Counted from the first letter of the stretch, positions 3,936 to 46,003 are shown. The stretch: 64,000 nucleotides of DNA from Haloarcula salina (GCF_010119195.1 NZ_WRXL01000002.1:558001-622000); one strand, 5' to 3'. The notes: generated by a model from the sequence alone, not told the origin. Translations and numbers: made by a program.

Positions 3936-4754
3936 ATGGCGAACGATTTCTCCCTGCGGTCCGGCACCGAACACGGCCACCGAACGTCGACCCGTGACCT
4001 GAGCCGGAAGTGGGACTACGCCAGGCTCCGTCGTGGCGTGTTCGGGACGGCCGCGTTCCTCGTCGTCTGGTGGGTGGCAGCGTCCACTCAACCGACGTAC
4101 TTGCTCCCCAGTCCGCTGGAGGTCGGGGGCGCTCTCTGGGGCGAACTCGCCAGTGGAGCCCTGTTCGTCCACCTGGGACAGAGCCTCCTCCACTACCTCC
4201 CTGGTGTCGCCCTGGGCGTGACGGCCGGCGGCGCGCTCGGCATCGCCATGGGCTGGTGGGGGCGCCTCGACGACGTCCTGACGCCTGTCGTCCGCGTCCT
4301 CAGGCCGATTCCGCCGCTGGCGTGGATCGTGTTCGCGATCATCTGGTTCGGCCTCGGGCACACCGGTGCCGCGTTCATCGTGTTCATCGGGGCGTTCTGG
4401 ATCACGTTCTACAACGCCTACAGCGGGGTCGAGAACTCGTCTCGAGAGTTGCTGGAGGTTGCGACGAATCTCGGCATCGACAGCGAGTACCGGCTGATTC
4501 GACGGGTCGTCATTCCCGACGCGACCCCCGAACTCCTGACCGGCATCCGGACGAGCGTCGGCCAGTGCTGGATGATGGTCGTCGCCGCCGAGCTGTTCGG
4601 CGCCCCCGGCGTCGGATACGAGATCATCACGAGCGCGAACAACCTCGCGATGGAGCGGAGCGTCGCCTACATGCTGGCGATCAGCGCCGTCTTCCTCGCG
4701 AGCGACTGGGGAGTTCGCCGCCTGGAAGCGAGACTGCTCCGGTGGCAGCCATGA
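3936..4754 (+). CDS. NitT/TauT-type ABC transporter permease
   Basis: The 272-residue protein has six or so membrane segments after a polar N-terminus. It carries the SsuC/TauC-type coupling loop (ELLEVATNLGIDSEYRLIRRVVIPDATPELLTGIRTSVGQCW), which contacts the ATPase, and the LRPIPPLAWI segment common in this family. It starts 2 bases after the binding protein stop and overlaps the ATPase gene by ATGA. I chose ATG 3936 because upstream in-frame sequence overlaps the preceding gene. Confidence 0.88.
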   Translation: MANDFSLRSGTEHGHRTSTRDLSRKWDYARLRRGVFGTAAFLVVWWVAASTQPTYLLPSPLEVGGALWGELASGALFVHLGQSLLHYLPGVALGVTAGGALGIAMGWWGRLDDVLTPVVRVLRPIPPLAWIVFAIIWFGLGHTGAAFIVFIGAFWITFYNAYSGVENSSRELLEVATNLGIDSEYRLIRRVVIPDATPELLTGIRTSVGQCWMMVVAAELFGAPGVGYEIITSANNLAMERSVAYMLAISAVFLASDWGVRRLEARLLRWQP

Positions 4755-5527
4755 CCGACACCGTCTCGTCTCCGGCCCCGACAGTCGCGGTCGAAGGCGT
4801 TCACAAACGGTACGAGACTACTGACGGAGCGGGGACGACCGCGCTCGCCGACGTCTCGTTCACCATCGACCCCGGCGAGTTCGTCACCGTCGTGGGGCCG
4901 TCTGGCTGTGGCAAGACGACGCTCGCACGGCTCGTCGGCGGATTCGAGTCTCCCACCAGTGGCCGGGTTCTCGTCGACGAGACGCCCGTTACCAGTCCGG
5001 CACCGGACCGGGCGATGGTGTTCCAGGCGTATCACTTGTTCCCGTGGCTCTCTGTCCAGGAGAACGTCGCCTTCGGACTCGTCGAACAGGGGGTGGCCGA
5101 AGACGTACGGAACGAGCGCGTGGAGGCGATGCTCGAGTTGGTCGGATTGAGCGACCGTGCGAGCGCGTATCCCGCGGAACTCTCAGGCGGCATGAAACAG
5201 CGGGTGGGGCTCGCCCGAGCGCTAGCGGTCGATCCGGGCCTGTTGCTGATGGACGAACCGTTCGGGAGCGTCGACTCGCAGACGCGGCGGCGCCTCCAAC
5301 GTGAACTCCTGGACATCTGGCGCACCGTGGAGAAGACCGTGGTGTTCGTCACCCACGACATCCAGGAGGCCGTGCTGATGAGTGACCGAGTCCTCGTGCT
5401 GACGGGAACGCCCGGCCGAGTCCGCGACGACGTCACCGTCGAACTGCCTCGGCCGCGAGACCGGACAGACGACGCGTTCATCGGGTACGTGGACACGCTC
5501 TTCGACCTGGTCGAAACAACGATCTGA
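4751..5527 (+). CDS. NitT/TauT-type ABC transporter ATP-binding protein
   Basis: The 258-residue ATPase shows Walker A GPSGCGKTT near residue 48, a Q-loop (MVFQAYHLFPW), the signature LSGGMKQR, Walker B LLLMDEPFGSVD and the switch histidine in VFVTHDIQEA. These are typical of SsuB/TauB. It is the last gene of the operon and overlaps the permease stop by four bases, implying translational coupling. It energises uptake of whatever the binding protein captures. Confidence 0.9.
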   Translation: MTDTVSSPAPTVAVEGVHKRYETTDGAGTTALADVSFTIDPGEFVTVVGPSGCGKTTLARLVGGFESPTSGRVLVDETPVTSPAPDRAMVFQAYHLFPWLSVQENVAFGLVEQGVAEDVRNERVEAMLELVGLSDRASAYPAELSGGMKQRVGLARALAVDPGLLLMDEPFGSVDSQTRRRLQRELLDIWRTVEKTVVFVTHDIQEAVLMSDRVLVLTGTPGRVRDDVTVELPRPRDRTDDAFIGYVDTLFDLVETTI

Positions 5528-5861
5528 GCGCCGACACCACGGCACAGACTTCGCCCCTCACACCTATCTCGGAACGCGTGACGGCCCAGGGAACGTCCGG
5601 TGGGCGACACCTGCGTTACCGGTGATTCGAGGGCGGAACGTCAGTTCCCTCTACGGCGTGCCGGTGGGAGGGACAGCGTGATCCACTCGCGCCTTGCATT
5701 CGACGCGGCAGTCACTGCCTATCACCGCCTGGCGGTGACGACACGGTCACTGTACTGCACACCGGATCCCACGTCCGTCGTGCGAACGGCGTGTGACGCG
5801 TTTCGGCTGGGACGGTGGCTTCGGTGACGAGGTAGCGCGTCAACGTGGCGTCGCCGCCGAC
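5528..5861. other. intergenic region, no gene seen
   Basis: These 334 bases separate the end of the transporter operon from the convergent GNAT gene. I see no reading frame with haloarchaeal protein character, no RNA gene and no repeat. It probably holds the two transcription ends. Confidence 0.5.
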
Positions 5862-6605
5862 TCAGAGATAGGCCGGATCCCACTCGTCCGGCCGGTGCGT
5901 GTTTCCACAGTCGGTGCACTGGAGTCGTTCGAGTCCGTCGGAGGTAACCGACGTGCTCTCACACGCCGAACAGAGGTAGCCGACGCGGGTCCCGCCGTCG
6001 TCGCGAACGGCGTAGAACGGTCCGCGCGCTCCCTGGAGCGACTCGTCGGTCGCGACCGGCTGGCGCTCCCCGTCCAGCGTGACTTCGTCGGGGACGCTGT
6101 CGTCTCGCTCCTGACGGTCCGGGTTCGCTCTGTGCCGCGTGTACACCTCGACGGTGAACCGCTCACCGCCGACTTCGGTGGTGTACTGCTCGCTCGCGTA
6201 GAGCCCGAACCGTTCCAGGAACGGTGCGCCTTCCCTGGCGCTCTCCAGCGCCCGGGCGGTGAACTGCGGTGCCGTCGTCTCCGCCTCGCTGCGGAGTTCC
6301 TCGACGAGCGCCCGGCCGACACCGCGGCCGCGGGCCTCCGGGTGGACGTGGAGCCACTCGATGGTCGTCCCGTCGCCGAGTTCGCCGAACCCGACGAGGC
6401 GAGTCCCGTCGTCGTCGGACTCCTCGGCGACCACCAGTTCGTCGTCTCCGTTCTCGATCCGCTCGCCGACCGGGGCCGGTGCGAACGTGGTTTCGACGAT
6501 GGTCGCGATCTTCGCCGGACTGAGAACGTACGACGCGCGGAACGACCGCCGAGCGATCGATTCGATGGCAGTGCTGTCGTCGGCCGTCGCGGGGCGTATC
6601 TCCAT
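5862..6605 (-). CDS. GNAT acetyltransferase with C-terminal zinc ribbon
   Basis: The 247-residue protein begins MEIRPATADD, a usual GNAT start. It has the acetyl-CoA pyrophosphate loop ARGRGVGRA near residues 91-99 following the WLHVHPE strand. The C-terminal third carries two CxxC pairs (LCSAC and QCTDC), a likely rubredoxin-like zinc ribbon ending WDPAYL. Known haloarchaeal proteins combine GNAT with such ribbons, but the acceptor substrate is unknown. I chose ATG 6605 over the upstream in-frame start because the 21 extra residues are not conserved-looking. Confidence 0.8.
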   Translation of the reverse strand: MEIRPATADDSTAIESIARRSFRASYVLSPAKIATIVETTFAPAPVGERIENGDDELVVAEESDDDGTRLVGFGELGDGTTIEWLHVHPEARGRGVGRALVEELRSEAETTAPQFTARALESAREGAPFLERFGLYASEQYTTEVGGERFTVEVYTRHRANPDRQERDDSVPDEVTLDGERQPVATDESLQGARGPFYAVRDDGGTRVGYLCSACESTSVTSDGLERLQCTDCGNTHRPDEWDPAYL

Positions 6606-6796
6606 ACGACGTGTCGGTCTTCTGTGGTGATAGGCGGCGTCCCTGCAGGTGAAGGGCAGTCCCGCCACGCCGTCGGATCGCGGTGGGTCGGTGCCCCTGA
6701 TTGGTGGGTCGATCTATGGGCGGCGCGGCCGTGGCGGCCAGAACAAGTGGCGCAACTGGGCGAGCGATGGCGGCCGCCTCGCCTGCTGGATTCCGG

Positions 6797-8278
6797 TCAC
6801 CACGCGGTGAACCGGTCCGTCTCGAAGGTCGCCGCCTGTCGACGGATGTAGCGCCGCTGGGTTTCCCGGACCGCGCGATCGAGGGATGCCCCCTCGTCGA
6901 GTCGGCTGCGTGCCTGATCGAGCTTCCACCTGGCGGGAGTCTGCCGGGTTCGAGCGCGCGATTCGAGCGGTGCGAGCAGGTCGTCCGCGTAGTCGGCGTC
7001 GAACCCGGCCGTTTCGAGCCCAGCGCGTGCACACGCGAACAGGTCCGCATAGAGCGCGTCGGTGTCGGTGACCCGGTCGCCCGAGCGGTCGATCCACCGG
7101 AGATCGGCCGACAGCCCGTCGGTCGCCGCCGCGTAGAAGTTGCGGCGCGCGTCCGCCCAGTCGAGGCGGCTGACCGGGTGCTCCCGCCGGGCGAGGTCGG
7201 TCAGCAGCCCGGCGAAGAGGCCGACGAACGCGATAGTGTCCCCCAGCGTGGGCTGGCCGGCCAGCGGACGGAACTCGATGCGCACGTTCGGTTCCCCCAT
7301 GACTCCCTCGTCGAACACCGGTCGGACCCAGCGCCAGTAACAGCCGTGCTTGTGCGTGAAGTGCGTCAGCGCCGACGGATCTTCGAACAGTCTGGGGACG
7401 ATGGTCGGGTCGGAGGCGATGGACTCGACGGCGTCGCCGACGGACTCGATGTCCTCCGGGAACGCGACCTTTGCCGGCCCGTCCTCGTCGTTCATCACGG
7501 ACTCGAACACCCCGATCCGGTTCTCCATCCTCGCGCCGTCCAGGATCGTCTCGCCGTCGACGTCGTCGTAGAATGCCGGCGGGAAGAGCGGTGAGTTGAC
7601 GCCGAGCGCGAGGATCGGCCCCGCGACGCGGAGCGCGTACCGGAAGTACGTCGGTAGCTCGCTCGCCTGCTCGACGACGAAGTGGGGCTGGATCGACGTC
7701 GTGAGGCTGTTCAGCAGTGCCGTCTTCCCCTCGTAGGTCGCGTTGGGAGCGTCGATTCTGGTGGCCGCGGACTGCCCTTGCGCGTGGTATCTCGCGGTGT
7801 CGCACATGTTCGTCGCGAGCACCGTGTCGTCGGTCGTGGTGTGGTCGGTGAGGTACTCGACCCCCGTCTCAGTCTGTGGCGAGATCGTCCAGAACCCGTC
7901 GCTGACCAGTCGTTCCTCCGGATCGAGGAGCTCCTCGCTCGCAGCCTCGAATCGCGCCCGCATCTCGGATTCGATGGTCTGGAGGCCCGCGGCGCTAAAG
8001 GGTTGGGGCGACGACTGAAACTCTATCTGGTGGCGACCGATCTCCTTCTCACAGCCCAGTATCTCGTCCGTGCACCGCGGAAGCGTCGTGAGCGCGTTCT
8101 CTCGATCGACCACGTAACACTCGTACTCCAGTCCGGTCGTCGCCAGTTCGCTGTCGAACGCTCCGTCTTCGACAGCGCTGACGAGCCACGAGGCCTCCTC
8201 GCGAACGCGGTGGTCGAACTCGGTCGGGTCGCGAGTGCAGAGCGAGTCGACCTGTGACGCCAGTTCTGTTTCCTTCAT
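6797..8278 (-). CDS. GCS2-family carboxylate-amine ligase (glutamate-cysteine ligase-like)
   Basis: The 493-residue protein has GCS2 features: LEYECYVVD near the start (Glu-rich ATP/Mg strand), HQIEFQSSPQPF, and later NVRIEFRPLAGQPT with RRNFYAA. This family joins glutamate to an amine such as cysteine using ATP, and haloarchaea make gamma-glutamylcysteine as their main thiol. At nearly 500 residues it is longer than the YbdK type (about 370), so the exact substrate is uncertain. GTG 8290 gives four extra residues; I prefer ATG 8278. It ends the gene pair downstream of the gas vesicle operon on the same strand, with a 105-base gap. Confidence 0.7.
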   Translation of the reverse strand: MKETELASQVDSLCTRDPTEFDHRVREEASWLVSAVEDGAFDSELATTGLEYECYVVDRENALTTLPRCTDEILGCEKEIGRHQIEFQSSPQPFSAAGLQTIESEMRARFEAASEELLDPEERLVSDGFWTISPQTETGVEYLTDHTTTDDTVLATNMCDTARYHAQGQSAATRIDAPNATYEGKTALLNSLTTSIQPHFVVEQASELPTYFRYALRVAGPILALGVNSPLFPPAFYDDVDGETILDGARMENRIGVFESVMNDEDGPAKVAFPEDIESVGDAVESIASDPTIVPRLFEDPSALTHFTHKHGCYWRWVRPVFDEGVMGEPNVRIEFRPLAGQPTLGDTIAFVGLFAGLLTDLARREHPVSRLDWADARRNFYAAATDGLSADLRWIDRSGDRVTDTDALYADLFACARAGLETAGFDADYADDLLAPLESRARTRQTPARWKLDQARSRLDEGASLDRAVRETQRRYIRRQAATFETDRFTAW

Positions 8279-8383
8279 ATACACTGACACTCGCCCTGCC
8301 CCCCTCAGTCTAGAGCTTGTATATACGCGGTGTTCGCCACAGCGACGGCTTCGGGCCAGTATGCGATCGAATCCGAGCTGCCG

Positions 8384-8668
8384 CTACAGCCCGCTCTCGC
8401 CGTCTCCGGGCCGACCCGAACCCGTCCGATCACGGCGTCCGTCGGCCGCTTCGCTCCCGTCGATGGCCGCCCTCGCGTCGTCGTCCCAGTCCTCGAAGTA
8501 GCCGTAGTCCCGCATCGTCGCCATGCCCGCGATCGCCGCACGGAGACTGATTCCGATGAGTGGAACGTCCGCGACCGTGACGACGACGTCCGCCTGCAGG
8601 ACGACGCCGTCGCGCAGGAGCACGTCGAGCAGGTCGACGACGGCGTCGCCCTCACGGGTGGGTTCCAT
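8384..8668 (-). CDS. gvpM: gas vesicle protein GvpM
   Basis: The 94-residue protein contains a GvpA-like core (VVDLLDVLLRDGVVLQADVVVTVADVPLIGISLRAAIAGM) of amphipathic helix-strand-strand-helix type, as in GvpJ and GvpM. Position as the last gene after gvpL matches gvpM in haloarchaeal loci. GvpM is a minor, hydrophobic assembly protein required for nucleation in Halobacterium and Haloferax systems. The tail after residue 55 is charged and poorly conserved. It begins 39 bases after gvpL ends. Confidence 0.85.
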   Translation of the reverse strand: MEPTREGDAVVDLLDVLLRDGVVLQADVVVTVADVPLIGISLRAAIAGMATMRDYGYFEDWDDDARAAIDGSEAADGRRDRTGSGRPGDGESGL

Positions 8669-8707
8669 TGCTCACTGTGGAGACGCCGTGAAGGCGGCGT
8701 TCGGCAG

Positions 8708-9565
8708 TCATTGGTCGGTCTCCAGCGTCGGTGCGAAGGTGTAGGGCGGCCAGGGACCGGTGTAACGGACTTCGACGCCGGGCGTCGCGGCCACCTCGTC
8801 GAGGCGCTCCCCGATGGCGGTCGCCGCGGCGTCGTCGGCAAGCGCGGCGAACGTCGTTTCGAAGTCCGCGTCGTCGGCCCGGTCCGTCTCGACGAGCGAG
8901 GAGACGGTTCGGTCGACGGACTCGACTTCTGTCGCGTGGGACGCGAGAGTCTCGCGGACCGCCGCCGCCGTCTCCCGCCACTCGGTCGCGACCAGCGACC
9001 GCTCACGCTGCCGGGCCTGCTTCTCGCGCAGGAAGGCGGTACCGGAGCCGGCCTCGGTCGCGTCGTCTCGAAGCTCGTCGAGGCGCGCATCCGCGTCGAC
9101 CGCGCTCGCTCCGAACGGGTCGGCGTCACAGCGGAGTTCGATGCGATACTCGCTGTGGCCGGCGAGGTCGTCGAGCGCCGACCGGAGCGTCGGGCCGGTT
9201 CGCTCCAGCCACGCCGCCACCGATTCGTCGTCGCCCTCGACGATGGTGTCGAACCGGACCGGTAGCGGGGTCCCGAAGCGGTCGTGGACGGCGTCGACGA
9301 CGCCCTGGTGTTCGAGCAGCCACCGCTTGACCGTCGCTCCGTCGTTCGAGTCGTAGGGGTCGTTCCGGCGGTGCACGACCGCCCCGACCCCGTCGTCGAG
9401 GACGAGGTAGGGTCGTTCGCCGTCGACGCCGTCCGTCGACAGTCCGGTGCCGTCCGCGACCTCGGGCGCGTCGATGAGGGCGGCCACGCAGTAGAGGTAG
9501 CGGCCCGTCCCGGCGGATTCGCCGTCCGGGCCGGCGTCGCCGACCGCCTCGGTGCTGTCAGTCAC
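8708..9565 (-). CDS. gvpL: gas vesicle protein GvpL
   Basis: The 285-residue protein is of the GvpF/GvpL family: it opens with GRYLYCVAALIDA and closes with VEVRYTGPWPPYTFAP, the two hallmark ends, with a long helical acidic middle. GvpL is an essential accessory protein proposed to hold other Gvp proteins during assembly. It starts with GTG at 9565, overlapping the gvpK stop by 8 bases, so translation is probably coupled. It is longer than the GvpF copy in this locus because of an extended middle. Confidence 0.9.
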   Translation of the reverse strand: MTDSTEAVGDAGPDGESAGTGRYLYCVAALIDAPEVADGTGLSTDGVDGERPYLVLDDGVGAVVHRRNDPYDSNDGATVKRWLLEHQGVVDAVHDRFGTPLPVRFDTIVEGDDESVAAWLERTGPTLRSALDDLAGHSEYRIELRCDADPFGASAVDADARLDELRDDATEAGSGTAFLREKQARQRERSLVATEWRETAAAVRETLASHATEVESVDRTVSSLVETDRADDADFETTFAALADDAAATAIGERLDEVAATPGVEVRYTGPWPPYTFAPTLETDQ

Positions 9566-35613: not shown

Positions 35614-36012
35614 ATGAGCGACGGTACACTCGTCTACGACGACGACTGCGGCTTCTGTACCTGGTGCGCCGACTTCGTCCGGACCCGCTCGGACGTCGAC
35701 ATCGTCGGGTTCTCGGAACTCGACGACGACCTGCTGGCGCGACTGCCCGAGGACTACGAGTCCTGCTCGCACTTCGTCACCGGGGACGAGGTGTACTCCT
35801 GTGGCGCGTCCATCGAGGCGGCGCTGGCGCGGACCGGCCCGGGCGAGCTGGCGCGCCCGGTGATCGAGTTCCTCGACCAGTTCGAGGACTACGAACGGCT
35901 CCGCGAGCGCGCCTACCGCCGCGTCGCGGACGACCGGAGTCGGTGGGGGAAGTACCTCTCGAAGACGCCGCCGGCGAGCACGGGCGATTCGAACTGCTAT
36001 AGTAACAATTGA
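35614..36012 (+). CDS. DUF393 thioredoxin-fold protein, C-terminus altered by an inserted element
   Basis: The 132-residue protein starts LVYDDDCGFCTWCADFV, the DUF393 signature with a CxxC redox pair, and continues DIVGFSELDDDLLARL, SCGASIEAALAR and YRRVADDRSRWGKYL. Family members are predicted thiol-disulfide proteins, often next to HTTM or lipase-maturation-type membrane proteins, as here. The last residues (about CYSNN) and the stop codon are supplied by the inverted-repeat element at 35997-36082, so the original C-terminus was replaced. Confidence 0.85.
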   Translation: MSDGTLVYDDDCGFCTWCADFVRTRSDVDIVGFSELDDDLLARLPEDYESCSHFVTGDEVYSCGASIEAALARTGPGELARPVIEFLDQFEDYERLRERAYRRVADDRSRWGKYLSKTPPASTGDSNCYSNN

Positions 36013-36088: not shown

Positions 36089-37546
36089 TCAGGCCCGGGT
36101 GAGCCGCAGGTCGCCCTCGCCGACCGGACTGACGTAGGTCCCCACCCGCTCGCGGACCCACCATCGGCCGGTCTCGCGGCGTTCCTCCGGAGTCGTGAAC
36201 CGGTAGCGGTAGCGGACCGCGCGGACGTGCGTCGGCGTCCCCTCGGGGAACGGGACCGATTCGAGGAGAGCGCGCGTCGCCTCGTCGCCGTCGAGGAGCT
36301 TTTGCAACAGCGCCAGGAACCACGGGCTCCGGTGGGGCGTCGGGGCCATCGCCGCGAACCACAGCTGCCAGTCCAGCCGATAGTGGTAGGGTGCGACCTG
36401 TCGCGGTCGCCGGCCAGGGTCGGTCGGCTTGCCCTTGAATTCGTAGGTCTCCCACTCCGTATCGGGCGTCACCGCGTCTTCGGCCGTCCCCTGGACGACG
36501 ATCTCGTAGCGGTCGCGGGTGATCGACCCGAACGCGCCGTAGGTGTTGACGAGGTGCAGCGGGTCGAAGGCGGTGTTCATCACCTGGCGCTCCGAGAGGA
36601 TGTTTCGCGCCGGGCCGACGCTCCGCCAGAGGACGACGGCGGCGAGGGCGAGAGCGAGGACCTGGAGGTACAGCGGCGGGCTAGACGCCGTCGGCGCGGT
36701 GACCGGCAGGACGGCGGTGAGCACGCCGTCGCTGAACGTCGCGACCGCCTGGACGATGGTGAGGGCGTTGAGCCACGAGAAGTTCCCCGTGACCATGAGC
36801 CACCCCTGGAAGCCGACGGTCGCCGCGCCAGCGACCGAGGCCCAGGGCTGGGGCGCGAAGTAGAGGAACGGGACCGCGACTTCGACGACGTGGTTCCCGA
36901 GCACTTCGACCCTGTGGAAGCGGTCGGGCAGGTGGTGGGCGTACCAGCTCACGGGGTTGGGGATCGGCTGGGTCTCGTAGTGGGAGTCGAGCGCGGTGCA
37001 GTCCCGCCAGCAGTCGTCCCCGCGGAGTTTGATGAGGCCCGCGCCGAACATGTTGCGAAACAGCACCCACTTCAGGAGCCAGACGACGACCACCGGCGGC
37101 CCCGTCGGCCCGGCTCCGAGAAACGCTGCGAGGAAGCCGGTCTCCAGCAGCATCGACTCCCAGCCGTACCCGTAGAACGTCTGCCCGGCGTTGACGAAGG
37201 AGAGGTACAGCCCCCACAGCGCGAGCCAGAGCGCTATCGACGCCGGGACGGCGTAGGGCGTCGGGAGCCACGAGGGGCCGCCCGCGAGCGCGACCGCCGA
37301 GAGGCCGACGCCGGCCCACGCCGCGACGCCGATGACGCGGTCGCTCGGATAGTAGTAGAACAGGCTGGGCCGCTCTCGAAACGAGTGACGGTCGACGTAC
37401 TGCCGGATCGGAAGCAGGCCGTCCTCGCCCGCGAGCGGCCGGAACTGTTTGGCCGCGACGAGGAAGGCGAGCAGGTAGATCGCCGCGAGTCCCCTGTGAA
37501 ACAGGACCCGTACGAGCCAGTAGGACCCCGCGTCCCACGGGAGCAT
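36089..37546 (-). CDS. lipase maturation factor family membrane protein
   Basis: The 485-residue protein has seven or more membrane segments followed by a soluble C-terminal domain. Features of the LMF1 family are the NAGQTFYGYGWESMLLETGFLA region, FRNMFGAGLIKLRGDDCWRDCTALDSHYETQPIPNP and the later TYGAFGSITRDRYEIVVQGT. In animals LMF1 helps lipases fold in the ER; prokaryotic roles are unknown but may concern folding of exported proteins. The neighbouring DUF393 redox protein would be a plausible partner. Confidence 0.88.
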   Translation of the reverse strand: MLPWDAGSYWLVRVLFHRGLAAIYLLAFLVAAKQFRPLAGEDGLLPIRQYVDRHSFRERPSLFYYYPSDRVIGVAAWAGVGLSAVALAGGPSWLPTPYAVPASIALWLALWGLYLSFVNAGQTFYGYGWESMLLETGFLAAFLGAGPTGPPVVVVWLLKWVLFRNMFGAGLIKLRGDDCWRDCTALDSHYETQPIPNPVSWYAHHLPDRFHRVEVLGNHVVEVAVPFLYFAPQPWASVAGAATVGFQGWLMVTGNFSWLNALTIVQAVATFSDGVLTAVLPVTAPTASSPPLYLQVLALALAAVVLWRSVGPARNILSERQVMNTAFDPLHLVNTYGAFGSITRDRYEIVVQGTAEDAVTPDTEWETYEFKGKPTDPGRRPRQVAPYHYRLDWQLWFAAMAPTPHRSPWFLALLQKLLDGDEATRALLESVPFPEGTPTHVRAVRYRYRFTTPEERRETGRWWVRERVGTYVSPVGEGDLRLTRA

Positions 37547-38075: not shown

Positions 38076-38450
38076 TCACCGGATGCCGTCGTCCGCGTCG
38101 GCCGGTTCATCCAGGTGTTCCTGGCCCCACTTCGCCATCTCGTCGATGACCGGTTCGAGCGACGCCCCGCGCTCCGTCAGCGAGTAATTGACTCGAAACG
38201 GCTGTTCGCTGATGACTTCTCGGTCGACCAGCCCCTTCTCTTGGAGGTCTTCGAGACTGTCGGACAGCACCTTCGAGGAGATGCCGTCGACGTTCTCCTT
38301 GAGCTCGTTGAACCCCGAGGGACCGTGCTCCAGCAGTCGGTGGACGATGACGGGGTGCCACTTCTTCCCGATGAGCGACGCCGTGGTGGTTATCGGACAC
38401 CACTCTTCGCCGGCACACCAGACGGAGAGCTTCTCCGGTGAGTCGGTCAT
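38076..38450 (-). CDS. HxlR-family transcriptional regulator
   Basis: The 124-residue protein has the HxlR winged helix: CPITTTASLIGKKWHPVIVHRLLEHGPSGFNELKENVDGISSKVLSDSLEDLQEKGLVDREV, then VNYSLTERGASLEPVIDEMAKWG. HxlR proteins often sense electrophiles or redox state; two cysteines near the N-terminus (C12, C18) could act so. Upstream (38470-38505) an AT-rich element and two GGTTA repeats may be its promoter and operator. Confidence 0.88.
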   Translation of the reverse strand: MTDSPEKLSVWCAGEEWCPITTTASLIGKKWHPVIVHRLLEHGPSGFNELKENVDGISSKVLSDSLEDLQEKGLVDREVISEQPFRVNYSLTERGASLEPVIDEMAKWGQEHLDEPADADDGIR

Positions 38451-39200: not shown

Positions 39201-40421
39201 CTACCAGGCCGCACGGAGCACGCCTTCGAGGTCGTCCGTCGACGGGTCCAGCCCCGGCGGCGCGTTCGCCATGAACGAGTCGGCGAGCACGGCGTCGGCG
39301 ACGGCCGGGAACGCGTCGCGGTCCGGACCGTCAACGTCCCGGAGGCGCGTCGGAAGCGACAGGGCGCTGGCGACTGCTGCCACGCGGTCGACCACTGCGG
39401 CGGCGGGGTCGTCGGCGTCGCCGACCCCGAGCGCGTCGGCGAGCAGGTCCCGCCGGCCGTCGACCCGCTCGAACAGGTACGAGAGCGCGTGCGGAGCGAC
39501 GACCGCGTGGGCCGCGCCCTGCTGGACCGCGTAGGTGCGCGTCAGTCCGTGGCCGAAGGCGTGGATCAGCGACAGCGTCGTCCCGTCGGCCCGCGAGATG
39601 CCGTACTGGACGAGCATGATTCCCTGGGTGAGCGCGCGGTACACCCACGGCTCCTCGGTGCCGTCGCCGTAGGCGAGCAGGCCCTCGGTGAGCAGTTCGA
39701 GGCCGCGCGAGGCCGTGGCGTCGGTGACCGGCGTGGCGTTCGCGGCGTACAGCGTCTCGACGCCCTTGTCGAAGCCGTTCATCGCGGACGCGGCGAGGAC
39801 GGTCCGCGGCGTCGTCGCCACCAGCTCGGGGTCGTAGCAGACGGCGGCCGGCATCAGGCCGGGGTCGCCGACGCCGCCGCTGACCGGTTCGTCGACCGGA
39901 CAGGTGTCGGGGGCCGCGGTGACGCCGGCCACCGACGAGAGGTCGGCCCCGGCGAGCGTCGTCGGGACGGCGACGACAGGCGGCAGCCCCGCGTCGGGAA
40001 CCGGAAGCGTCCCCGTATCGACGAGCGTGCGACCGACGGCGTCGGGGTCGCGGTCGGTCGCGGCGAGGACGCCGGCGATTTTCGCCACGTCGAGGCTGCT
40101 CCCGCCGCCGACGGCGACGAGGCAGTCTGCGTCGGCCGCTCGGAACGCGTCGAGGGCGTCGTATGCGGTGCCGAGGCGCTTTTGCGGCGTCGTCTCCGCG
40201 AAGGTGCCGGCGAGACTGTCGCCGAGACCGTCGCGGACGGGGTCCATCACGGCCGGCGTCTCGCCGACGGTCGACCCGCAGACGACGAGCGCGCGGTCGC
40301 AGCCGTGCGCGGCGAGTTCGTCGCCGAGTGACGCCGTGCTACCGGGGCCGTACCGGAGCGCGGCCGGGTCGTAGTCGAACCGGAACGGCGCGGCGAGGTC
40401 CCCACCGATCGGATTGGCCAT
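39201..40421 (-). CDS. iron-containing alcohol dehydrogenase (maleylacetate reductase-like)
   Basis: The 406-residue protein is a group III alcohol dehydrogenase: RYGPGSTASLGDEL at the start, VGGGSSLDVAKIAG for nucleotide binding, VPTTLAGADLSSVAGVT, and metal-site histidines in LIHAFGHGLTRTY and AAHAVVAPHAL. The TLAGADLS and HA-x-GH patterns resemble maleylacetate reductases more than butanol dehydrogenases. It follows the VOC dioxygenase gene immediately, so a joint role in ring-fission product reduction is plausible. GTG 40427 directly abutting the previous stop is an alternative start. Confidence 0.75.
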   Translation of the reverse strand: MANPIGGDLAAPFRFDYDPAALRYGPGSTASLGDELAAHGCDRALVVCGSTVGETPAVMDPVRDGLGDSLAGTFAETTPQKRLGTAYDALDAFRAADADCLVAVGGGSSLDVAKIAGVLAATDRDPDAVGRTLVDTGTLPVPDAGLPPVVAVPTTLAGADLSSVAGVTAAPDTCPVDEPVSGGVGDPGLMPAAVCYDPELVATTPRTVLAASAMNGFDKGVETLYAANATPVTDATASRGLELLTEGLLAYGDGTEEPWVYRALTQGIMLVQYGISRADGTTLSLIHAFGHGLTRTYAVQQGAAHAVVAPHALSYLFERVDGRRDLLADALGVGDADDPAAAVVDRVAAVASALSLPTRLRDVDGPDRDAFPAVADAVLADSFMANAPPGLDPSTDDLEGVLRAAW

Positions 40422-40427
40422 CGCCAC

Positions 40428-41384
40428 TCAGTCGCCTCCCTCGGGATTCGGCCTCTCGAACGGGGGGAGCTGTCGCTCGATGGCGTCGCGGTCCGGTTCC
40501 AATTTCTCCGGGAGCGTCAGCCGCGAGCCGAGGTCGTCGAGGTCCTCGTCGACGGTGAAGCCCGGGCCCGCAGTTGAGATCTCGAACAGGACACCGCCGG
40601 GCTCCCGGGCGTAGAGCGCGTGGAAGTACGTGCGGTCGATGATGGGACTCGGCGAAATCCCGCGTTCTTGGTACGCTTCGCGATAGGCCTCCAGGTCCGC
40701 GGTGGTTTCGGCCCGGAACGCGACGTGGTGGACCGTTCCGACGGCCATCCGTCCCCGTTCGAGGTCCGTTTCGACCAGGTCGACGACCGAACCCGGGCCG
40801 CCGGTCGCGCTCCGGTAGCGGTGGCGGCCGTCCTCGGTCGCTTCGTGGACGTATCCCAGCACGTCCGTGAGCACCTCGGCCGTGGGTTCGATGTCGCTGA
40901 GCGCCAGTGTGACACCGTGGAAGCCCTGGAGCTGGTGTTCGGCCGGAACGGGACTGTCGTCCCACGGGACGGCGTCCGACGGCACGTCGGCCGCCACGAG
41001 TTCGAGGGTGATACCGTCCGGGTCCTCGAACCGGAGGACGGTCTCGTCGAACCGCTCGGTCCGCGTCACGTCGACGCTGCGGTCGCCGAGTCTGTCGAGC
41101 CAGTAGCCCATCGAGCCCTCGTCGACGAGGTACGCCGTCGTCTGCGTCTGGCCTGCCCCGAAGGTCCCCCGTCGGCCGCTGTCTGTCCAGGGGAAGAAGG
41201 TGATATTCGTCCCCGGCGTCCCCTCGCCGTCGCCGAAGTAGAAGTGGTACGTTCCGGGGTCGTCGTGATTGACGGTGCGCTTGACGAACCGGAGGCCGAG
41301 CGTCTCAACGTAGAACTCGGCGTTGCGCTCCGGGTCGCCGGCGATGGCCGTGACGTGGTGCAGACCGCCGGTGTCGGGTGCCAT
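40428..41384 (-). CDS. VOC-family ring-cleaving dioxygenase (MhqO-like)
   Basis: The 318-residue protein has two vicinal-oxygen-chelate repeats: GLHHVTAIAGDPERNAEFYVETLGLRFVKRTVNHDDPGTYHFYFGD in the first and HGVTLALSD, VHHVAFRAE, DRTYFHALYAREPGGVLFEIST in the second. The His/Glu metal ligands appear in LHHVTA, VHHVAF and LFEIST. The length and the FYFGDGEGTPGTNITFFPW segment match MhqO/MhqA-type proteins linked to hydroquinone tolerance. It is followed by the reductase gene with no gap. Quinone or hydroquinone as substrate is inference from the family. Confidence 0.82.
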   Translation of the reverse strand: MAPDTGGLHHVTAIAGDPERNAEFYVETLGLRFVKRTVNHDDPGTYHFYFGDGEGTPGTNITFFPWTDSGRRGTFGAGQTQTTAYLVDEGSMGYWLDRLGDRSVDVTRTERFDETVLRFEDPDGITLELVAADVPSDAVPWDDSPVPAEHQLQGFHGVTLALSDIEPTAEVLTDVLGYVHEATEDGRHRYRSATGGPGSVVDLVETDLERGRMAVGTVHHVAFRAETTADLEAYREAYQERGISPSPIIDRTYFHALYAREPGGVLFEISTAGPGFTVDEDLDDLGSRLTLPEKLEPDRDAIERQLPPFERPNPEGGD

Positions 41385-41433
41385 ACCGACGAATACGGCC
41401 CCCACGGTTGAGTAGCTTTTCTCACCCCCGCGT

Positions 41434-41466
41434 CACCGGCGGACGCCGGTGTTACTACGTCACCGG
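41434..41466. promoter_or_regulatory. inverted and direct repeat upstream of the dioxygenase gene
   Basis: CACCGGC-GGAC-GCCGGTG (41434-41451) is a perfect 7-base inverted repeat, and its first arm recurs as CGTCACCGG at 41458-41466. It lies 50 bases before the dioxygenase start on the minus strand, between two divergent genes, and could be an operator for either. Confidence 0.4.
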
Positions 41467-41509
41467 AGGCAACTGAAGCGTTAACACGCCCCGGATCGTA
41501 TCGCCGGCC

Positions 41510-41695
41510 ATGGCCTGTCCCTATCTCGAGTACCGAAGCGCCGACGGGCACGCGTCGTTCGACCACGAGCGGGCGTACTGCACCGCGTCGTCGTCGCTCG
41601 TCCAGCCGATGCGGGCCGACATCTGCAACGACCGCTACGACCTCGACCACGAGCGCGACTGCGAGATCTACCGCGCCCACGCGGAGGTCGAGTAG
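41510..41695 (+). CDS. small conserved cysteine-containing haloarchaeal protein
   Basis: The 61-residue protein (MACPYLEYRSADGHASFDHERAYC, then VQPMRADICNDRYDLDHERDCEIYR) has four cysteines and several His/Asp residues, which suggests a metal site. I recognise it as a conserved haloarchaeal type but know no function. It ends two bases before the BKACE gene, so the pair is probably one operon. Confidence 0.75.
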   Translation: MACPYLEYRSADGHASFDHERAYCTASSSLVQPMRADICNDRYDLDHERDCEIYRAHAEVE

Positions 41696-41697
41696 CC

Positions 41698-42543
41698 GTG
41701 GGATACGACGACTACCTCGCCGCGGAGCCGGTGATCGTCACCGCGGCGCTGACCGGCGGCGTCCACGGCAAGGAGGCGAACCCGAACCTCCCCGAGACGC
41801 CCGCGGAGATCGGTCGAGCGGCGGCAAAAGTGGAGGCCGCGGGCGCTTCGGTGGTTCATCTCCACGCTCGCCGACCGAACGGCGAGCGCTCGTTCGAGAC
41901 GGCGCGGTTCCAGGAGATCGACGACGCCGTCCGCCGGCACACCGACGACGTGATCATCCAGCACTCGACCGGCGGGACGGGCGCGCCGGACGACGTTCGC
42001 CACCAGCCGCTTCGGACCGACCCGCCGCCGGAGATGGCGTCGCTCGATATGGGGCCGCTGAACCGCTACGACCGCCTGACCAGCGAGAACACCCGCGCGC
42101 TGGTCGACTCGCTCCACGCCGAGATGGTCGACCGCGGCATCAAGCCGGAACTGGAGGCGTTCAACGACGGCCACCTGAACGAGGTCCGCGGCCTGCTCGA
42201 CCGGCGCGACCTCGCCGACCCCGTGTACGCGACCCTCATCTTCGGCCCGGGAACGCTCGCCCCGCCGACGCCCGGGAACTTCCTCAACGCCGTCCGAAAT
42301 CTCCCCGAGGGCGCGCTGTTCAACACGCTCGGGTTCGGTCGCCACCAGTTGCCCTTCGCCGCGATGGGGGTGCTGTTCGGCGGCCACGTCCGCGTCGGCC
42401 TCGAAGACAACGTCTACTACGAGCGCGGCGAACTCGCGGAGAGCAACGCCCGCCTCGTCGAGCGCGTGGTGCGGGTGGCCGCCGAACTGGGCCGCCCCGT
42501 CGCTTCGACGGCGGAAGCGCGGGCGATTCTGGGGCTGAAGTGA
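41698..42543 (+). CDS. beta-keto acid cleavage enzyme (BKACE, DUF849)
   Basis: The 281-residue TIM-barrel protein has the BKACE landmarks: VIVTAALTGGVHGKEANPNLPETPAEI (zinc and substrate strand), VVHLHARRPNGERS with the zinc-binding HxH, ELEAFNDGHL, LGFGRHQLPFAAMGVLFGGHVRVGLEDNVYYERGELAESNARLVERV. Characterised members react a beta-keto acid with acetyl-CoA to give acetoacetate and a new CoA ester. It starts with GTG, two bases after the small cysteine-containing gene. The nearby dioxygenase and reductase suggest beta-ketoadipate as a candidate substrate. Confidence 0.88.
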   Translation: MGYDDYLAAEPVIVTAALTGGVHGKEANPNLPETPAEIGRAAAKVEAAGASVVHLHARRPNGERSFETARFQEIDDAVRRHTDDVIIQHSTGGTGAPDDVRHQPLRTDPPPEMASLDMGPLNRYDRLTSENTRALVDSLHAEMVDRGIKPELEAFNDGHLNEVRGLLDRRDLADPVYATLIFGPGTLAPPTPGNFLNAVRNLPEGALFNTLGFGRHQLPFAAMGVLFGGHVRVGLEDNVYYERGELAESNARLVERVVRVAAELGRPVASTAEARAILGLK

Positions 42544-42840: not shown

Positions 42841-44721
42841 TCAGCGGGGGTCGAATCCGTCTAGGCCGTCCGTCCGCGCTTCGAGGTCGTCGAGTATCGA
42901 TTCGAAGTCGGCGACGCTCGGCTTCTCGCGCCGGTCTGGAGCGGCGAGGACGCGGACCGACTGGGTCCCGAGCGGGACGAACCCGAGCCCGAGCTTCGTC
43001 GCGGTCGCGCGGAGCCCGAGGCCGGCGTCGGCGTCCCCGTTTCGCACTTTCCGGGCCGGGCTCTCGTGGGCCTTCGCGGTGAGTTCGTAGCCCTCGATGG
43101 CCTCGGTGAGGGCGGCCCGACCGACGCCCCGCTCGTCGGCCAGCGCGTCGAGCGAGTCGTCGAGGCTCCGCCGCAGGCCGGAGCCGCCGTCGCGGTTGAC
43201 GAACCGGACCGAGTCGTCGACGAGGTCGGACAGGCTCGTCACGTCGCTCGCCTCGGTGACGACGAGGCCCCACTCTCGCGTCCACCCGCCGATGTCGGTC
43301 GCGTCGGGCTCCGCATCGACGGGGCCCGCGACCACAGCGAGGTCCGGTACGCCGTCACCGAGACGGCGGAGGCCCTCGGCCGTGCCGACCGGGAGGTAGC
43401 GCGGTCGGTCGATCTCGTCTAACAGGCGCGAGAGCAGCGGATCGTCCTCGCCCATCCCCAGCAGGGTCGGCGGTCTCACGGCGGGCGAAAAGAGCGTCAC
43501 CTCGACGGCCTCGCCGTCGGCCAGGTAGTCCGTCCCCGCCGGCACGTCCACGAAGCCGTCGGCGTCGACGAGGCTCGTCGTCGCGCCGCTGCCCTTGTCG
43601 ACGGGGTAGACCAGCGTCGTCCCCGCACCGTCCTCGACGAGTCCGGCGGGCAGCAGGCGTCTACGCCCCTCGCCGTAGCGCTCCTCGACCGCCATCCGAC
43701 CGGTGACGACGGCCGTCTCCGGCGCGGGCAGTCCGGCGGCGTCGCGGAGCGCCGGCGCGACGAACGTCCGGAAGATGGTCAGTGCCGACACGGGGTAGCC
43801 CGGCAGGCCGACGTAGGCCGAGTCGCCGATGGTCCCGACCAGCATCGGCTTGCCGGGCTTGATCGCGACGCCGTGGAGTCGGAGGTCGCCGCGCTCCTCG
43901 ATGACGCGGTAGATCACGTCGACCGCGCTCGCGCTGGTCGACCCCGACGAGAGGACGAGGTCGCACTCGTCGGCCGCCTCGCGGAGCAGCCGCTCCATCT
44001 CGTCGAAGTCGTCGCCGGCGTGGGGGTACAGCACCGGGTCGCCGCCGGCCTCCTCGACGGCGGTCGCGAGCGCGTAGCTGTTCACGTCGTAGATCTGGCC
44101 GGCGGCGCTGTCGAGGGCGTCGCCGGGGCGGACCAGCTCGTCGCCCGTCGAGAGGATGCCGACGCGCGGGCGACCCCGGACCGGGACCTCGTCGACGCCC
44201 AGCGCGGAGAGGAGGCCGATCTCCCGGGCCGTGAGCCGCGTCCCGGGGCCGAGCGCCCGCGCCCCGGCCGCGATGTCCGCGCCGGCCAGCATCACGTGGT
44301 CGCCGGGCGCGACGGCCGTGCGGACGTCGACGCCGTCGTCGGTCTCGGTCGTCCGCTCGACCATCACGACGGCGTCCGCGCCGGGGGGCAGCACCGCGCC
44401 GGTCGAGATCTCCGCCGCCGTTCCCGGCTCGACGGTCACGTCGGGCTCCTCGCCCGCGTGAACGACGCCGGCGACGGACAGCGTCTTCGGGTCGGCCTCG
44501 TCCGCGCCGAAGGTGTCTCTGGCGCGCACGGCGTAGCCGTCCATGCTCGCGCGGTCGAAGCCGGGCACGTCGATGGCGGCGTCGATCCGCTCGGCGAGGA
44601 CGCGGTCACGCGCCGCGTCGAGCGGGACCGTCTCCGGCTCCGGGGCGATGTCGAGGCCGTCCACGGCCTCTCGGGCTTCCTCGGGCGAGGCGAGGTCGCG
44701 GAACTCCCGTCGGTCGCTCAC
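42841..44721 (-). CDS. MoeA fused to a C-terminal substrate-binding-like (LysR-type) domain
   Basis: Residues 1 to about 400 are MoeA: DVPGFDRASMDGYAVRARDTFGA, GTAAEISTGAVLPPGADAVVMVE, GRPRVGILSTGDELV, SSGSTSASAVDVIYRV, AIKPGKPMLVGTIGDSAYVGLPGYPVSALT. From about 430 the protein continues with a PBP-like domain (LLSRLLDEIDRPRYLPVGTAEGLRRL, FVNRDGGSGLRRSLDDSL, DADAGLGLRATATKLGLGFVPLG), as in archaeal MoeA-LysR-type fusions thought to bind molybdate or tungstate. MoeA inserts the metal into molybdopterin. It starts with GTG overlapping the stop of the upstream moeA by GTGA. Confidence 0.9.
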   Translation of the reverse strand: MSDRREFRDLASPEEAREAVDGLDIAPEPETVPLDAARDRVLAERIDAAIDVPGFDRASMDGYAVRARDTFGADEADPKTLSVAGVVHAGEEPDVTVEPGTAAEISTGAVLPPGADAVVMVERTTETDDGVDVRTAVAPGDHVMLAGADIAAGARALGPGTRLTAREIGLLSALGVDEVPVRGRPRVGILSTGDELVRPGDALDSAAGQIYDVNSYALATAVEEAGGDPVLYPHAGDDFDEMERLLREAADECDLVLSSGSTSASAVDVIYRVIEERGDLRLHGVAIKPGKPMLVGTIGDSAYVGLPGYPVSALTIFRTFVAPALRDAAGLPAPETAVVTGRMAVEERYGEGRRRLLPAGLVEDGAGTTLVYPVDKGSGATTSLVDADGFVDVPAGTDYLADGEAVEVTLFSPAVRPPTLLGMGEDDPLLSRLLDEIDRPRYLPVGTAEGLRRLGDGVPDLAVVAGPVDAEPDATDIGGWTREWGLVVTEASDVTSLSDLVDDSVRFVNRDGGSGLRRSLDDSLDALADERGVGRAALTEAIEGYELTAKAHESPARKVRNGDADAGLGLRATATKLGLGFVPLGTQSVRVLAAPDRREKPSVADFESILDDLEARTDGLDGFDPR

Positions 44722-45935
44722 TGCGACCACTCCCAGTGCTCGACTGCGACAATGGCTCCGGCGTCGTACCCCTCGACGGACTCGGGGACGACGACCCAGC
44801 CGTCCGCCAGCGCGACGCTGGAGAGGACGCCCGCGCCGCCGGTGCGCGTCGGCGTCGCTGTCGGTTCGTCCCCCTCGTCGTCCAGTTCGACCCGGGCGAA
44901 CGTCCGCGTCCCCGGTTCGCTCGCTATCTTCCGGGTCAGTTCGGCCTCGGTCGTCGGCGGAGCGGTCTGCGGGAGGTGGCCCGCGCGGCGGAGCGCCGGC
45001 CGGAGGAACTGGACGGCGTTGACGATACAGGCCACGGGGTAGCCGGGCAGTGCGAGGACCGGCGTCCCCTCGACGACGCCCAGCGCGACCGGGTGGCCGG
45101 GCTTCAGCGCGACGCCGTGGACCAGCACCTCGCCGAGGTCGTCGACGACCTCCGGGAGCAGGTCGCGCTCGCCGACTGACGACCCGCCAGTCGTCACGAC
45201 GAGGTCGTGGTCAAGGTCCGCGCTGATAGCCGCTCGGAGCGCGTCGGCGTCGTCGGTGACCACCTCTCGGTAGCTCGCCTCGCCGCCCCAGCGCGCGACG
45301 TACTGGGCGACCGTCTGGCCGTTCGTCTCGACGACCTCGCCGGGGCCGGGGTCGTCCTGAACCAGTTCCTCTCCGGTCGGGAGCACGCTGACGCGGGGGC
45401 GCTCGTACACCTCGACGGCGTCGCGGCCGACGGACTTCACCAGCCCGAGGTCCGACGGGCGGAGCCGGTGACCCGCCTCGTACAGCGTCTGGCCCTTCGC
45501 CACGTCCTCGCCGACCGGCGCGACGTTCTCGCCGCCGGCGACCGCGTCGAACACCGCGACGGTGTCGCCGGTCCGGTCCGCCTCCTCGACCATCACCACG
45601 GCGTCGGCCCCCTCCGGGAGTTCGCTCCCCGTGTGGACCCGGGTCGCCGTCCCGGCCGTCACTGCCTCGTCGACTCTGAGGTTCGCCGGCGACCGCCGAC
45701 TCGCGCCGAACGTGTCCTCGGCCCGCACCGCGTACCCGTCCATCGCCGCCCGGCGGTAGTGCGGGACCGGTCGATCCGCGGTGACCGTCGACGCGACCAC
45801 GCGCTCGTCGGCGTCGCGGAGCGGCACCCGCTCGGTCCGCTCGTGTGGCGTCACGGCCGCCAGCAGCGCCTCTCTAGCCGCCGCTACGGGCGTCCGGTCC
45901 TTGAAGCCGGCCGACCTGCGTGACTCGTTGCTCAT
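44718..45935 (-). CDS. moeA: molybdopterin molybdenumtransferase MoeA
   Basis: The 405-residue protein has the full MoeA pattern: PVPHYRRAAMDGYAVRAEDTFGA, GTATRVHTGSELPEGADAVVMVEEA, RPRVSVLPTGEELV, VTTGGSSVGERDL, ALKPGHPVALGVVEGTPVLALPGYPVACIVN and a C-terminal domain IV. It is translationally coupled to the MoeA fusion downstream. Two adjacent MoeA genes may divide work between molybdenum and tungsten or between two steps. ATG 45935 is preferred to the upstream start. Confidence 0.92.
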   Translation of the reverse strand: MSNESRRSAGFKDRTPVAAAREALLAAVTPHERTERVPLRDADERVVASTVTADRPVPHYRRAAMDGYAVRAEDTFGASRRSPANLRVDEAVTAGTATRVHTGSELPEGADAVVMVEEADRTGDTVAVFDAVAGGENVAPVGEDVAKGQTLYEAGHRLRPSDLGLVKSVGRDAVEVYERPRVSVLPTGEELVQDDPGPGEVVETNGQTVAQYVARWGGEASYREVVTDDADALRAAISADLDHDLVVTTGGSSVGERDLLPEVVDDLGEVLVHGVALKPGHPVALGVVEGTPVLALPGYPVACIVNAVQFLRPALRRAGHLPQTAPPTTEAELTRKIASEPGTRTFARVELDDEGDEPTATPTRTGGAGVLSSVALADGWVVVPESVEGYDAGAIVAVEHWEWSQ

Positions 45936-46003
45936 GCTCGTACGAGCGGTCGCCACACCAAAAAGCTCGCCAGGTTTAGGTCTCGCGGCCCTCTCTACCG
46001 GGT

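Follow-up and report, generated by a model that had tools for sequence, protein, structure and literature searches.

A locus in the Haloarcula salina genome was found to be conserved and to be made up of parts of known kinds, and there is about an even chance that it is a catabolic or detoxifying module in which ring cleavage is combined with cleavage of a beta-keto acid, encoded by two divergent operons and including a BKACE with a four-Cys partner. The locus lies in a stretch of 64,000 nt (G000:C7:558001-622000), which is referred to here as the window. A dioxygenase of the VOC superfamily would open a p-hydroquinone-type ring, and an enzyme of the FeADH family, other than a canonical maleylacetate reductase (MAR) and likely to work without a metal, would reduce a product of that cleavage. 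The BKACE would then split the resulting beta-keto acid with acetyl-CoA to give an acyl-CoA and acetoacetate, acting together with a small four-Cys protein found only in Halobacteria. A single pathway for all of the enzymes, the order of its steps, the substrates and the role of the four-Cys protein are what we infer. The four-Cys partner of a haloarchaeal BKACE was the unexpected result of the analysis. Aromatic breakdown in haloarchaea is poorly understood, and a concrete and widely conserved candidate is provided here.

Gene content and predicted enzymes of the locus

Adjacent VOC dioxygenase and dehydrogenase genes accompanied by a BKACE gene had been described in an initial annotation, and the positions and families of all three were confirmed using Pfam and PDB sequence matches (Table 1). 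The length previously given for the divergent region is exact, but the region lies between the VOC gene and a 61-aa ORF, not between VOC and BKACE. This ORF, the first gene of the BKACE operon, had been omitted. The VOC gene is 6 bases upstream of the dehydrogenase gene on the same strand, a spacing that predicts a single operon, and only 2 bases separate the stop codon of the four-Cys ORF from the GTG start of the BKACE gene. The locus is thus predicted to consist of two divergent operons, VOC-dehydrogenase on the minus strand and four-Cys-BKACE on the plus strand. The BKACE and four-Cys genes are each present in a single copy in this genome.

Table 1. Features of the locus, with coordinates in the window
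Feature	Coordinates	Strand	Remarks
PF00465 dehydrogenase, 406 aa	39201-40421	-	Pfam Fe-ADH 91 bits and ADH_Fe_C 63 bits
MhqO/PcpA-type VOC ring-cleaving dioxygenase (predicted), 318 aa	40428-41384	-	Glyoxalase superfamily; best PDB match MhqO 3oaj, 270 bits
Divergent intergenic region, 125 bp	41385-41509		Exact length
Four-Cys protein, 61 aa	41510-41695	+	C3, C24, C39 and C51 invariant; BKACE partner
BKACE, 281 aa, GTG start	41698-42543	+	PF05853, 282 bits

A palindromic element, GTCACCGGCGGACGCCGGTGTTAC, was found at 41432-41455, inside the divergent region, and is a variant of a related element, GTCACCnGGnnAC, that 8 of 15 divergent loci carry between their two operons. The GTCACCnGGnnAC element also occurs upstream of the VOC gene in two loci with no BKACE gene nearby (L122 and L123), and was not found at the corresponding position in loci that lack VOC, where there were two weak matches further upstream. 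It is probably an operator of the VOC promoter.

Elsewhere in the window, a member of the lipase maturation factor 1 family that has both of the LMF1 domains, here in an archaeon, is encoded at 36089-37546, near a gene for a DCC1-like thiol-disulfide oxidoreductase (35614-36012). Two adjacent genes downstream of BKACE (42841-45956) were judged by eye to be MoeA-like, and in the Haloarcula genomes L114 and L115 these two are immediate neighbours of the dehydrogenase gene.

Using a profile of its orthologs, the VOC protein matched MhqO best (PDB 3oaj, 332 bits), followed by 1zsw and the PcpA-type 2,6-dichlorohydroquinone dioxygenase (4huz, 212 bits). The full PcpA/MhqO active site is present (H8, H9, H218, H219, E267, R250 and Y257, in alignment-based numbering to which 1 is added to count from Met), with the Arg equated with that of PcpA by its distance to the Glu. 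In an alignment of 11 rows, one of which has a gap in place of the first two His, all orthologs that cover these positions keep the 2-His-1-Glu metal site as well as the active-site His, Arg and Tyr. The roles are assigned as in PcpA. The earlier description of this protein as MhqO-like is therefore borne out, and it is predicted to be an MhqO/PcpA-type dioxygenase acting on p-hydroquinone-type rings.

The dehydrogenase reached no NCBIfam cut-off, and its nearest structure by sequence was 3jzd of the MAR subfamily (126.7 bits), with a lactaldehyde reductase hardly lower (123.8 bits). Its metal site is degenerate, as three of the four ligands are replaced (Asn215, Lys219 and Gln301) and only His287 is kept, an arrangement that is invariant in 19 orthologs and suggests that the enzyme is probably metal-free. 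The metal-ligand Asp is also replaced in MARs (PMC5125639), by Asn or Arg, and Asn215 was found in 19 of 19 orthologs here, where two further ligands have also been lost. However, His172 and Lys238 (PcpE numbering), proved essential in a MAR by mutation (PMC5741723), correspond to Lys219 and Ala/Ser288, again in 19 of 19 orthologs, and the MAR signature LHHKLCHTLGG is absent, the sequence reading LIHAFGHGLTR. The enzyme thus resembles a MAR in the loss of its metal site but is not a MAR by its catalytic residues, and its previous designation as maleylacetate-reductase-like holds at the level of the superfamily and fails below it.

The BKACE score for PF05853 compares with a gathering score of 24.8, and the predicted structure is a confident TIM barrel (pLDDT 90; TM 0.90 to Kce). 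The enzyme is catalytically complete, with Zn ligands H54, H56 and E236 and catalytic residues E153, R232 and D237 all invariant in 49 orthologs; the roles are assigned as in Kce. None of the equivalog cut-offs of the NCBIfam BKACE models was reached, the scores being 259 bits for Kce (cut-off 382), 208 bits for the 3-oxoadipate model NF053568 (cut-off 350) and 174 bits for the 3,5-dioxohexanoate model (cut-off 430). Against NF053568, the structures 3no5 and 3fa5 score 494 and 488 bits, and Kce 268 bits. Three Arg residues that 3no5 and 3fa5 share and that are absent from Kce are Thr94, Leu127 and Tyr240 in the window BKACE, and Arg is found at these positions in none of the 49 orthologs, which is suggestive only, but points away from activity on beta-ketoadipate.

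Pairing of BKACE with a four-cysteine protein

The tightest association at the locus is that of BKACE with the four-Cys protein: in 80 of 80 relatives, the gene directly upstream of BKACE encodes a homologue of this protein. The four Cys residues were invariant in an alignment of 51 such proteins. Among 393 genomes of the phylum, the protein was found in 30, all from the order to which the window belongs and all also carrying a BKACE of the window's clade (E <= 6.5e-97), and none was found outside Halobacteria. One genome that has only a more distant BKACE (G013; E 2.6e-85) has no four-Cys protein. A second BKACE clade, paralogous to the window BKACE and sharing 52-59% identity with it, has its own four-Cys copy, which is located downstream of BKACE (L146 and L148), upstream of it (L147) or facing it from the other strand in a convergent arrangement (L149-L151). 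In one of these loci (L149:412-10757) the paralogous BKACE and four-Cys genes are found among genes for 3-hydroxyacyl-CoA dehydrogenase-like, mandelate racemase-like and FAD-oxidase proteins, possibly representing a separate keto-acid pathway.

The pairing is near-obligate, and as it has been kept through changes in gene order and pathway, a physical or biochemical partnership is argued. The four-Cys protein is probably a structural or metal-site partner of BKACE, making BKACE here probably a two-component enzyme. Neither a Pfam search nor a PDB sequence search with the protein produced a match (above the cut-off for Pfam), and a fold search with its AF2 model (pLDDT 70) revealed no relative. 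An identity as Vps62 was rejected, as the Pfam match (E 0.03) does not reach the cut-off. A broader proposal, which we put forward tentatively and at slightly less than even odds, is that haloarchaeal BKACE is two-component, with the four-Cys protein as its dedicated subunit or as a partner at the metal site. The two would form a lineage-specific BKACE system that serves at least two pathways, one of them cleaving a ring-opening product other than beta-ketoadipate. The BKACE family is well studied and its members are otherwise known as stand-alone enzymes, BKACE15 being a homotetramer (PMC11961710), and the four-Cys protein is a new and testable partner for it. A literature search for a haloarchaeal Kce returned no match.

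Conservation of the locus and its possible functions

In a sample of 391 halobacterial genomes, BKACE matches were found in 229 (about 145 close orthologs at >=64% identity), the dehydrogenase in 266 (E <= 1e-60) and the VOC clade in 56 (>=380 bits), the counts for VOC being lower bounds, as the VOC at L035 was found by direct search and missed in the genome scan of G298. VOC and BKACE are both present in 40 genomes, and in at least 36 of these, from five families, no more than 5 kb lies between them (close-ortholog, proximity and family counts were tallied by hand from match lists). The VOC clade and BKACE tend to be present together (40/56 versus 105/335; Fisher p 2e-8, with no correction for phylogeny). 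Within the genus Haloarcula, the VOC clade occurs in at least 6 of the 7 genomes with BKACE and was found in 0 of the 17 others, most of which have the dehydrogenase.

The divergent order seen in the window recurs at L035, L042 and L047. At L154 a single-strand run of VOC-X-FeADH-four-Cys-BKACE genes (3998-9551) was found, where X is a 349-aa protein with no Pfam match that by eye has the look of the enolase superfamily. At L152 the order is four-Cys-BKACE-VOC on one strand, and at L039 BKACE and VOC are convergent with FeADH upstream. Proximity in so many genomes, across several gene orders, indicates that the VOC-BKACE link is real, and the co-occurrence that the initial annotation proposed to look for is present. 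A VOC gene with an in-frame TGA, possibly decaying, was seen in one relative (L037; G332:C1:785755-786594).

Each half of the locus also leads a separate life, since VOC-FeADH pairs occur without a BKACE of the window's kind (L116-L124) and most loci with a four-Cys-BKACE pair have neither VOC nor FeADH. This is consistent with an alternative in which VOC and FeADH would form a quinone or hydroquinone detoxification pair, by analogy with MhqO/MhqE of Firmicutes, and BKACE and its partner a separate adjoining unit with no common pathway. The closeness of VOC to MhqO points the same way, as do the MhqD-like hydrolase, HxlR and DoxX-like genes that recur near genes of the locus; together with OsmC, which also recurs, these genes are as compatible with quinone stress as with catabolism. 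However, the proximity of VOC to BKACE is kept across families in differing gene orders, and in both of the Haloarcula genomes that were inspected (L114 and L115) the dehydrogenase gene directly adjoins moeA and the VOC, four-Cys and BKACE genes are all missing, making two unconnected units unlikely. The HxlR gene in the window (38076-38450) was considered as a regulator but is not assigned to the dehydrogenase operon, as other genes intervene in two Haloarcula genomes.

It is more doubtful still that BKACE and the four-Cys protein catalyse a general haloarchaeal beta-keto acid reaction (the keto acid might, for instance, come from a 3-hydroxy acid) that has been reused beside several pathways, which would suit the many genomes in which BKACE lies mostly beside unrelated genes and the 3-hydroxyacyl-CoA dehydrogenase-like gene adjoining a paralogous pair, but would leave the strong local link with VOC unexplained.

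Fit with the beta-ketoadipate route and with known systems

The initial annotation had assigned the genes to a specific and supposedly new route, in which hydroquinone would be converted, via a semialdehyde, to maleylacetate and then beta-ketoadipate, and BKACE would form succinyl-CoA and acetoacetate in place of PcaIJ/PcaF. The chemistry is known or proposed in bacteria, and gene co-occurrence and the VOC active site are in its favour. Low scores for PcaIJ are also in its favour, as the two CoA-transferase pairs of the host score at most 34 bits (cut-off 243.55) and 20 bits (cut-off 128.5) with the PcaIJ/ScoAB models, and were rejected as PcaIJ on this basis; this is compatible with a bypass but is no demonstration of it. 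A match over the cut-off for acetoacetyl-CoA synthetase was not found in the genome. One further cluster (4504-10200 of L132; G000:C10:313000-332000) includes a PaaA-like phenylacetyl-CoA epoxidase gene, further paa-like genes and a benzoate-CoA ligase-family gene, along with an ABC transporter and a CoA-transferase pair of atypical kind. The location of the paaA-like oxygenase gene near one CoA-transferase pair suggests that the host degrades aromatics.

Against this route, the reduction of maleylacetate to beta-ketoadipate is disfavoured by the loss of both MAR-essential residues, and cleavage of beta-ketoadipate by the position of BKACE outside the curated NF053568 family and its lack of the Arg residues shared there, so that residues disfavour two of the three steps of what is an unproven route. 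The first step is also incomplete. Hydroquinone 1,2-dioxygenase produces 4-hydroxymuconic semialdehyde, which a dehydrogenase then oxidises to maleylacetate, in the case of unsubstituted hydroquinone (PMC3324391), and no gene for this semialdehyde dehydrogenase was seen in the inspected neighbourhoods. The cluster showed no upstream hydroxylase, and a search of the genome revealed no monooxygenase of the FMO/BVMO type. Nor is the idea new, as the bypass of PcaIJ/PcaF by BKACE has been proposed for Methylobacterium pca clusters, resting on a 2014 BKACE screen (Bastard 2014) (PMC8963497, PMC12379598), and NF053568 is named for the reaction. The exact route is accordingly improbable, and the locus illustrates how reasoning from names can fail, as both the reductase and BKACE depart from the families that the route needs.

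The preferred reading, a ring-cleavage and beta-keto-acid-cleavage module, can be compared with several known systems. The window VOC retains the metal site, Arg and Tyr of MhqO and PcpA (3oaj, 4huz), and differs in being linked to FeADH and BKACE. The dehydrogenase shares its superfamily and the Asp to Asn replacement with MARs (3jzd, 3hl0, 3w5s; PcpE), and lacks their essential His and Lys and their signature. The window BKACE has the fold of Kce (38% identity) and keeps its Zn ligands and catalytic residues, whereas Glu14 of Kce is replaced by Val22, the Kce cut-off is not reached and a four-Cys partner gene adjoins. With the 3-oxoadipate:acetyl-CoA acetyltransferases (NF053568; 3no5, 3fa5) it has the superfamily and reaction type in common, but neither the score nor the family Arg residues. 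In the Methylobacterium pca cluster, where DUF849 stands in for pcaIJ/pcaF, BKACE is likewise found beside ring-cleavage genes, and the same bypass is envisaged, but the route there is the bacterial intradiol protocatechuate route, whereas a VOC dioxygenase and an FeADH-family enzyme are present here.
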